A stretch of DNA of 64,000 nt from Janthinobacterium psychrotolerans (GTDB taxonomy: Bacteria > Pseudomonadota > Gammaproteobacteria > Burkholderiales > Burkholderiaceae_D): NCBI RefSeq assembly GCF_001677885.1, contig NZ_LOCQ01000054.1, positions 62,001-126,000 on the forward strand, in the 5' to 3' direction. A program made the translations under genes and the position numbers. Numbering within the stretch: position 1 is the stretch's first letter; every line of letters starts with the position of its first letter. The notes under the pieces are model-generated. The model was not told the origin of the DNA and did no database searches. It was given only the letters and a program-made list of their open reading frames with translations. This document shows, in pieces, positions 48,366 through 50,660 of this stretch.

Positions 48366-50006
48366 TCAGCCCGGGAGCATGGCGGTCAGCACGCCATGCT
48401 CGAGCCAGCGGCGCAACTGCCCGCCCAGGTCAAAATCCTCGTCCAGCCCAAAGGCAGCGTCCAGCGCCGCGCCAAAACATTCCCCTTGCAGCAAACACTG
48501 CAGCGCCGCATGGGCAGCCGCATCGAGCGCCATGACCTGCGCCTGCCATTGCGGCCGGCATACCAGGGCGTGCGCCGGCCAGTCCAGTTGCCGGGGAAAC
48601 GCTGCATTTTCCTGTTGATGCGCCTGCCATAACGCCGCCACTTGCCAGTCGGATCTGATCAGTGCGCACGCCGGGTGCAGGGCAAAGCGGGCATTTTCCA
48701 GTTGCTCGGGCAACAGGCTGGCCAGCACATCGAACGGCAAGCCTGGCGCGTCCGGCGCGTAATGGGCCAGGTGCAGCGCCCATTCCAGGCGCGCCATGTC
48801 GGGCAGATACGGCAGTTGCGCCACAGGAGGAAAATCGGCGAGGAAAGTGGGAAAGTCGCTGCCGAAACGGTTCAGGTCGGCGTCTTGCGAAGGATAACGG
48901 CGCCCGTATTCGCGCGCCATGCCCGTAAAAAATTCCTCGCCCACCAGCGCCAGCACCACCGGATAGGCCTGGCCCAGCACGCGGCGCCAGGTGGCGTTCA
49001 GGTTGCCCCGGTACAAGCCCAGGCGCTGCCCGACCAGCACGCCGCGGCACTGATTAATCGCATTATCGGCCTGGCCAGCATCGAGCAGCGCGTCGGCAAA
49101 CGCTTGCTGCTTGTGCGCCAGTTGCTCGCCCGGCGGCGGCGCTGTCACGCCAGTGCGCGAACCGCGCCATGGCGCCGCAGCATGATGCATTTGCTGCAGC
49201 GCGCGCGCCCGGTCGGCCTCGGCCAGCAACACCGCCAGCTCGGGCACATCGGTATCCCACTCGATCAGAGTCGGCACCTGGCCAAAGCGCTGCAAGGCCG
49301 CCTTATACAAGGCCCAGACCGGTTCGGCCACGGCGGCGCCATGGTGGTCGATCACGGCGAGCGGCGTGAGCAGGTGGCCGCCGAGGTGCAGCTCGCCAAC
49401 GATATCGGCGGGAATATCGCGCAAAGCCGCCAGCGCGTCCTCGCCGTGATTGCACTGGTTCACATACAGGTTATTGACGTCGAGCAACAGGCCACAGCCG
49501 CTGCGGCGCGCCAGTTCGGCCAGGAACTGCGCTTCGTTCATGGCGTCGGCGTGGAAGCGCAGGCTGGTCGAGACATTTTCCAGCAAGATGGGCCGGCGCA
49601 AGGCGTCCTGCACCCGCCCTACCCTGGCGCACAGCAGGTCCAGCGCGGCATGGTCCAGGGTCAGCGGCAGCAAGTCGTTGAATTGCCGTCCCGCCACGGC
49701 GCCCCAGCACAGATGCTCGGACACCAGCGCCGGTGCGATGCGCTCGCACAGCCTTTGTACCCGCTGCAGATGATCTTCGGAAAAACCGCGTGCCGAGCCC
49801 AGGCCCAGGCCCACGCCGTGCAGGCTCAGGCCATAGTCCTGGCGCACGGCCTGCAGCACATGCCAGTCGCGGCCCGAGCAGGACAGATAATTTTCGGTGT
49901 GTACTTCCAGCCAGTCGACTTGGGGCCGGCCGCCGAGAAAGTCGCGGTAATGCGCGGCGCGCAGGCCGACGCCCACGCCGCCCAGCGCGTGGACGGGCTG
50001 CGCCAT
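48366..50006 (-). CDS. Fused MNIO (DUF692, BufB-like) and DUF2063 (BufC-like) bufferin-maturation protein
   Basis: This 546-residue single chain joins two proteins that are usually separate. Residues 1-270 are the multinuclear non-haem iron oxidase domain, with likely iron ligands H63 (SLHG), H98 (SEHLCW), E143 (LLENVS), D176/N179 ([11 protein letters not shown]), H207 (GELHLGGH) and E249 ([10 protein letters not shown]). A linker of about 25 residues follows. Residues 295-546 are a DUF2063 partner ([36 protein letters not shown]). MNIO enzymes with such a partner convert cysteines of precursor peptides into copper-binding heterocycles. The precursor gene is 11 bp upstream. The start at 50006 was chosen because upstream codons lie in that gene. 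Confidence 0.88.
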
Positions 50007-50017
50007 GGCTTGCCGGC

Positions 50018-50320
50018 TTATGACTGCTGCTTGGCCGCAGCGGCTTTCTTGCCTGCCTTGACAGGCTTCAAGGCGCCGCCCGCCTGCTCGCAAGTTCCCT
50101 TGGCAACATACGCCCATTCGGTCGGCAAGTTGTCGCTGGCGGCCTGACCGGCGCAGGAATGGGCGCCGTCGGACGAGGCGCAATCATTCTGGCCGGCCTT
50201 GGCGACGCCATAGCATTTTTCCTTGTCGCCGGCGGCGGCATCATGGTCGGCAGCACTGGCAACCGAGGTGGCGCACAGGCCGGCCAGGGCGGCGGCAACG
50301 AGAGCGTGACGTTTGTTCAT
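50018..50320 (-). CDS. bufA1: Bufferin-type metallophore precursor (BufA1/DUF2282)
   Basis: This 100-residue secreted precursor has a signal peptide cleaved near SVASA (residue 23). The mature part has exactly four cysteines, C36 (EKCYGVA), C47 (NDCASS), C56 (HSCAGQ) and C77 (GTCEQAGG), in the DUF2282 order, with a Lys/Ala-rich tail. In described bufferins the MNIO enzyme modifies central cysteines to thio-oxazoles that bind copper in the periplasm. Its gene lies directly before the fused MNIO-DUF2063 gene. No DoxX-type or ECF sigma gene is adjacent, so regulation is not evident. Confidence 0.87.
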
Positions 50321-50459
50321 GGCAGTCTTTCGTAAAAGGAGTCGTATCCGATTTTACGCTGTCGCAGAAAAAGAAGGGAAGATCCTGCATGCACAAGCGC
50401 GCCGCAGCCAGGCCGGCAGCGGCGAAAGTGGCCTCAGCAGCCGGGGCTGCCTCGCAGAA

Positions 50460-50660
50460 TCAGGCCGTGGTATTGATGCGGTTGCCCAGGTGCGAAGGCA
50501 GGCTCGGTGCGGCCGGCATCGGCGGCAGGGCTTCGATCAGGGCGGTGGCGGTCGAGCTCTGGATATCCTGGGCTTTTTTCAGGACGGTCATGCCGACTTC
50601 TTGACGAATTCCAGTTTCAGCCATCGTGGTTGACAGTTGTGCAATGCTTCCGATGTCCAT
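50460..50660 (-). CDS. YjfB-like putative motility protein
   Basis: This 66-residue protein starts MDIGSIAQLSTTMAETGIRQ and contains VGMTVLKKAQDIQSSTATAL and the end LPSHLGNRINTTA, matching the small YjfB/putative-motility family. Its function is unknown, but a sigma-28 promoter lies 29 bp upstream of the ATG, which places it in the flagellar regulon. AGGAGAG precedes the start. It is followed by 139 bp before the bufferin gene. Confidence 0.82.
   Translation of the reverse strand: MDIGSIAQLSTTMAETGIRQEVGMTVLKKAQDIQSSTATALIEALPPMPAAPSLPSHLGNRINTTA

Follow-up and report, generated by a model that had tools for sequence, protein, structure and literature searches.

A bufferin precursor gene adjoins a gene encoding BufB and BufC in one frame

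The window, that is, the whole 64,000-nt stretch of the Janthinobacterium psychrotolerans contig NZ_LOCQ01000054.1 that was analyzed, carries on its minus strand a bufferin precursor gene and, after a gap of 11 nt, one long open frame that matches both the MNIO and the DUF2063 families, with the gene order precursor, MNIO, partner kept (Table 1). On the fusion protein, PF05114 scored 329 bits (cut-off 25) and PF09836, in the same frame, 72 bits (cut-off 27.2), both above the Pfam cut-offs, and the NCBIfam BufB model NF050167 was passed as well (350 bits against a cut-off of 310). The HvfC equivalog model NF050145 gave 35 bits and its cut-off of 142 was not reached, which indicates that the partner half is a relative of HvfC and not HvfC itself. 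Canonical bufABC clusters have separate bufB and bufC genes; as both are joined here in one frame, the locus was classed as a variant of such clusters. A sequence-only reading of the window had proposed a BufA1-type precursor adjoining an in-frame 546-codon MNIO-DUF2063 fusion, and the single frame, the profile scores and the short gap all bear this out.

The precursor was the only DUF2282 match found in the genome (PF10048, 80.9 bits against a cut-off of 22.4), and it scored 24.1 bits with the Buf2 precursor model NF050166, short of the cut-off of 60. Within its DUF2282 part lie the four ordered cysteines noted by the same reading, C36, C47, C56 and C77, at a spacing of 11-9-21; a fifth, C16, is located inside a likely signal peptide, which was judged by eye from a basic start, a hydrophobic stretch and an ASA-A site. 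The inverted repeat preceding the gene, a possible operator, resembles a dyad found at another locus, L111.

Table 1. Features of the bufferin locus in the window.
Feature	Position (nt)	Strand	Basis and remarks
BufB-BufC fusion gene	48366..50006	-	single open frame, ATG start, 546 aa + stop; Pfam and NCBIfam matches
RRE-like part of partner, about aa 441-543	48378..48686	-	partner model residues 151-253 align with TbiB1 5v1u_A
DUF2063 domain, aa 300-389	48840..49109	-	PF09836, E 4.3e-20
Linker, aa 272-299, Ala/Pro-rich	49110..49193	-	variable among relatives; amino acids change faster than in either domain
MNIO/BufB domain, aa 10-271	49194..49979	-	PF05114, E 2.3e-98; fold matches TglH 8hi7_B, 3bww and MbnB 7dz9_A
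BufA1 (DUF2282) bufferin precursor, 100 aa	50018..50320	-	PF10048, E 6.4e-23
7-bp perfect inverted repeat CGTAAAA-N14-TTTTACG	50331..50358	.	just upstream of bufA; repeat search; candidate operator

Predicted structure of the fusion protein

The AlphaFold2 model of the fusion, built with 62 fused sequences, formed a compact single body (mean pLDDT 95.4 and pTM 0.93 over 546 residues), whose sole weak internal stretch was found around aa 281-290 with a mean pLDDT of 77. For two halves of equal size, such values of pTM and pLDDT would imply a defined mutual position. The MNIO half matched TglH (8hi7_B, Z 28.3), 3bww (Z 27.8) and MbnB (7dz9_A, Z 26.2), and this TIM-barrel fold together with the conserved metal-site residues places it among the MNIOs, metal binding itself being predicted. 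None of the 62 fused proteins in alignment A1 deviates at Asn178, Asn179, Asp220, His222 or E249; this alignment was selected from the 115 fused rows of the tree described below as being less than 80% alike, with linkers of at most 75 aa and a short C-tail; alignment A2 comprised 60 of 93 selected partners. Judged by the 3bww alignment and the motif, N178, N179, D220 and H222 match the region of N175, D242 and H244 in HvfB, the loss of which is reported to abolish activity (PMC13419390), the exact Asn register being presumed.

With the whole fusion as query, only MNIO-like barrels were among the fold matches listed, and the partner was therefore folded alone (pLDDT 95.3, pTM 0.90). Its best match was NGO1945 (3dee; Z 14.8, 191 residues, 3.8 Å), which a profile search also retrieved (E 1e-5), followed by the MNIO partner TglI (8hi7_A, Z 14.1). 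The next matches had Z 7.4 and lower and RRE proteins among them, the RRE-like part aligning with TbiB1 at Z 6.8 over 78 residues; MbnC matched at Z 6.4. In profile and fold, the partner half thus consists of a DUF2063 domain and then an RRE-type domain, as in PME type 1 partners (BufC/HvfC). TglH-TglI (8hi7) and MbnB-MbnC (7dz9, 7fc0) share these MNIO and partner folds with the window's protein, but each is made of two chains and has another substrate and product.

PF09836 continues to be described in Pfam as a putative DNA-binding domain, a role proposed in the 2009 NGO1945 paper (PMC2954202), and a C-terminal half acting as a DNA-binding regulator would turn the protein into an enzyme-regulator hybrid. 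As the partner model matches TglI and RRE domains, and later work regards NGO1945 itself as an MNIO partner (PMC12452194), we consider this highly improbable and treat the C-terminal half as the MNIO partner.

The fusion is conserved in the family of the host and recurs elsewhere

Among 195 sampled genomes of the host's family, 116 match the fusion protein and at least 64 encode both domains in one frame, 56 of them by one spanning match among the matches listed and eight (G108, G043, G040, G120, G046, G018, G139 and G009) by frame inspection, three of which run into a contig end. Within the genus Janthinobacterium, 12 of 13 genomes were fused among the matches listed; in G005, an apparent counter-example of the same genus, only the partner half was matched and the contig ends at the junction (L032), so it counts neither for nor against fusion. 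Among relatives in named genomes, the best 80 of 208 were evaluated and every one was fused; they belong to Janthinobacterium, Duganella, Massilia, Rugamonas, Pseudoduganella and allied genera, and these nearest named relatives point to a Janthinobacterium-like member of the Oxalobacteraceae as the host. Two objections had been anticipated by the sequence-only reading, namely a stop or frameshift at the junction and close relatives with two separate genes, and neither materialized: tblastn detected no such lesion at the junction and no internal stop in the 30 fused proteins checked among the 56 with a spanning match (that of the window and 29 from relatives), and the close relatives are fused in the numbers just given. 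Since relatives carry the same in-frame fusion, an assembly or sequencing artefact at the junction has next to no probability.

Several apparent distant fusions with matches across both domains (e.g. G265, G338, G769, G596, G653, G718 and G889) turned out to be separate genes once their frames were checked. A plasmid search gave 353 matching records, the 20 listed being of Burkholderia glumae, with 49% identity and the halves annotated as separate genes. An Oxalobacteraceae-type fusion was found on a contig titled Bifidobacterium breve MAG (L170, CAMCSO010000029.1), which groups with Rugamonas-like rows and is probably mislabelled or contaminated. Rugamonas rubra ATCC 43154 (L160) encodes a fused bufferin enzyme and is also the source of the MbnABC structure 7fc0, so that this strain seems to combine the fusion with a methanobactin MNIO pair.

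Of the 288 loci classed, 137 were fused, 147 had the two genes side by side and 3 lacked a partner, and the 283 loci with a partner were reduced to 260 distinct rows for tree building (115 fused and 145 separate). The loci are mostly best-scoring matches, which biases them towards fused ones, and no fraction is therefore claimed for the order or class. L188, a second copy of the window's locus, is included in the 115 fused rows of the tree, linker and upstream-precursor tallies and was left out of those for the promoter motif, doxX association, Cys spacing and dN/dS. On the FastTree tree of all 260 rows, at least 11 changes between the fused and separate states were needed, nine of them forced by well-supported (starred) branches, compared with about 85 when the labels were shuffled. 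One clade, which includes the window and its family, holds 102 fused and 2 separate rows, and the remaining 13 fused rows are scattered over several places. An IQ-TREE tree of 80 rows chosen by hand from the 260 likewise needed 11 changes, 8 of them forced, and a single fused clade was rejected (AU p 0.000124). These tests do not separate gains from losses, and the tree positions suggest that the MNIO-partner fusion has arisen more than once. The single-chain MNIO-DUF2063 fusion is thus real, conserved and recurrent.

The expectation that BufB and BufC are normally separate proteins held in so far as separate pairs are common (145 of 260 rows) and evidently sufficient elsewhere, but fusion is by no means rare, being usual in the family clade (102/104), recurring outside it and having been printed once in 2009 (PMC2954202). 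As the separate pairs L033 and L034 lie within fused clades, fusion is also not indispensable; L033 (G062), whose neighbors in the family clade are fused rows, some with short linkers, may represent a fusion split back into two genes.

Within 1.2 kb upstream, 110 of the 115 fused rows have a DUF2282-type gene, compared with 100 of 146 separate cases. The fused proteins L078, L089 and L252 have none within this distance and may act on another precursor type. Among 102 parsed precursors of fused loci, the cysteine spacing was 11-9-21 in 78 and 11-7-21 in 24. A cysteine in the likely signal peptide, at residue 16 of the precursor, was present in 86 of these 102 and in 3 of 92 precursors of separate loci. 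Its distribution seems to follow the Oxalobacteraceae clade and not fusion as such, since the separate loci L033 and L034 of the clade have it and the fused L097, L106, L254, L257 and L263 outside the clade do not.

Linker and gene junction

Between the profile borders, the linker spans 19-101 aa in the 115 fused rows and has no shared sequence beyond its ends; with such lengths, the linkers look like plain tethers. Six rows, Herbaspirillum- and Herminiimonas-like genomes among them, have linkers of only 19-23 aa, little longer than the natural C-tail of separate MNIOs past the profile end (mostly 9-25 aa, range 6-59). In L036, L037, L038 and L254 the linker reaches 68 to 101 aa and is rich in Ala, Gly, Pro and Ser, so fusion linkers seem able to grow freely. 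Comparing the window with relatives in four pairs, dN/dS was 0.16-0.22 for the MNIO, 0.26-0.39 for the partner and 0.42-0.84 for the linker, the last value being noisy with 23-27 linker codons. The linker of the window is Ala/Pro-rich, as had been described from the sequence, but relatives differ from it in both sequence and length. The further suggestion that the fusion hints at how the partner docks gains little from the linker itself, because the junction is not conserved. In-frame ATG (codon 273) and GTG (codon 287) codons occur in the window's linker, through which the partner may be expressed alone.

In separate pairs, the partner profile match most often begins 4-17 nt past the MNIO stop. 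This tight packing, the almost unconstrained linker and the separate pair L033 inside the fused clade would all fit a neutral fusion, in which the genes were joined by chance and the product was then tolerated without any gain in stoichiometry or affinity. However, the MNIO and partner frames differ in 137 of 147 separate pairs, so that loss of the stop codon alone would not join them, and fusion has recurred and is retained in nearly all rows of the family clade. Weighing both, we give neutral fusion a serious chance that falls somewhat short of even.

doxX and the putative promoter motif

The locus is flanked on one side by a YjfB_motility gene (50460-50660, -), mobB and a phosphoesterase gene, and on the other side by a weakly DUF883-like gene (below the Pfam cut-off) and fumC, all of which are unrelated to bufferins. 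In agreement with the sequence-only reading, which had called the locus minimal, no doxX, ECF sigma or anti-sigma gene was found among these neighbors. The core-cluster gene doxX is thus absent from the locus, the genome's only PF07681 match being on another contig, and the genome's NrsF matches also sit on other contigs. Minimality is not a feature of fusion, however, as 44 of 114 fused loci have doxX next to them, and the presence of doxX or of the motif described next does not track fusion.

Of 196 regions upstream of bufA, 33 contain the sequence TGTAAGG-N15-16-CGACTA, against 0.0 expected from single-base shuffles, with L164, L123 and L045 among its carriers, and 62 contain a relaxed form, against 0.82 expected. 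This putative ECF-like motif resembles the sigma-F promoter GTAACC-N16-CGAA reported for the bufferin genes of Caulobacter (PMC3511200). In the window, the motif is absent upstream of 50320; the genome has no exact TGTAAGG-N15..17-CGACTA site, and a simple sigma-70 scan found no promoter-like sequence at the locus. Statistically, the 101 fused loci scored comprised 36 with doxX and the motif, 5 with doxX only, 1 with the motif only, 57 with neither and 2 cut by a contig edge, while the corresponding numbers for separate loci were 23, 44, 2, 25 and 1, doxX often being present there without the motif. Over 19 independent branch pairs, doxX and the motif agreed in about 9.8 and disagreed in 0.2 (median p 0.004, range 0.0002-0.11). 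Within fused loci, doxX and the ECF-like promoter motif are thus gained or lost together, which provides a testable clue to the role of DoxX in bufferin operons.

Fusion was not associated with loss of doxX or the motif (median p 1, with 4 independent pairs available on starred branches). With both absent from the window and no association with fusion, the minimality of this locus is a separate, lineage-specific reduction. NrsF was present in 22 fused sampled genomes and, among the matches listed, never within 10 kb on the same contig, several contigs being short.

Missing doxX, NrsF and ECF-like promoter, together with the empty sigma-70 scan, could also mark the locus as a degenerate remnant whose regulation was lost and whose genes are fading. 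We regard this as unlikely, since both domains are under purifying selection (dN/dS <0.4) in an intact frame and the reduced state is widespread among relatives: of the 101 fused rows scored for both traits, 57 have neither doxX nor the motif.

Proposed function and relation to known systems

With good confidence, we assign the locus to biosynthesis of bufferin-1 (BufA1), with BufB and BufC (PME type 1, DUF2063 plus RRE) in one polypeptide that most likely acts as a self-sufficient maturase. Judging from known relatives, the RRE part would hold the N-terminal region of the precursor, the tethered iron site would oxidize the central C47 and C56, probably to 5-thiooxazoles, the outer C36 and C77 would form a disulfide, and the exported modified peptide would bind and buffer copper. 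In Buf1, the central cysteines are reported to be modified and the first and last to form a disulfide (PMC12452194), and the bufferin 1 product was assigned as 5-thiooxazoles, for which absorbance near 305 nm is reported (PMC12668002).

A fixed 1:1 ratio of BufB to BufC would follow from the single-chain architecture. The tether would make partner binding intramolecular, offsetting weak enzyme-partner binding such as that seen for HvfB/HvfC, and would hold the iron cluster mixed-valent, the form in which it is active. According to the preprint on the latter pair (PMC13419390), MNIO enzymes rely on weakly binding partners; HvfB and HvfC were fused by hand because they bind weakly, and the linker-less fusion, which was needed to trap the active iron state, yielded markedly more product and mixed-valent iron than the co-expressed pair. 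The selective reason for fusion, if it was selected, is the least certain step of the proposal. A wider and rather doubtful reading, which we offer tentatively, is that MNIO-partner fusions form a class of their own among RiPP-modifying oxidases, one that evolved repeatedly, is self-sufficient and has made permanent what was a weak, regulated contact between two proteins, and that the Oxalobacteraceae operon was also freed from ECF stress control and doxX in several branches, leaving a formerly stress-induced copper buffer under other regulation.

Among known systems, the Buf1 clusters bufA-bufB-bufC(-doxX), e.g. Caulobacter CC3254-CC3257 and Cupriavidus gigPABT, resemble the window in the four-Cys DUF2282 precursor, the MNIO, the DUF2063-RRE partner and the gene order (PMC12452194, PMC3511200, PMC10304878), but in the window BufB and BufC are one protein and doxX, ECF sigma and NrsF (DUF1109) genes do not adjoin. 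The engineered HvfB-HvfC protein (PMC13419390, a 2026 preprint) is likewise a single chain with the MNIO first and the partner second; it is man-made, linker-less and acts on an oxazolin/EGKCG substrate, whereas that of the window is natural, has a linker and faces a DUF2282 precursor. MovX also joins an MNIO and a recognition domain in one chain, but the same preprint describes only a fused C-terminal RRE for it, whereas the window's protein has the full DUF2063-RRE partner. In the NGO1945 paper (PMC2954202), an N-terminal DUF692 domain is mentioned for 1 of 216 DUF2063 proteins of Pfam, with both domains in the same order as in the window; the passage names neither organism nor precursor nor function for it. 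Within the text examined from open PubMed Central papers, we came across no natural fusion of an MNIO with its partner in a bufferin cluster. The frequency and recurrence of the natural fusion seem to be new, the domain order having been in print for one case since 2009. Natural fusions are numerous, pair domains that belong together and cover linker lengths from 19 to 101 aa; they could serve directly as constructs for structural work, spectroscopy and docking of the precursor, and for asking whether the partner has a role beyond substrate recognition.

The genome encodes a second MNIO (L047:5425-6459, contig C5), which is preceded by a TIGR04222 protein whose tail is rich in Gly and Cys and, by this gene context, is assigned to a different MNIO cluster type.
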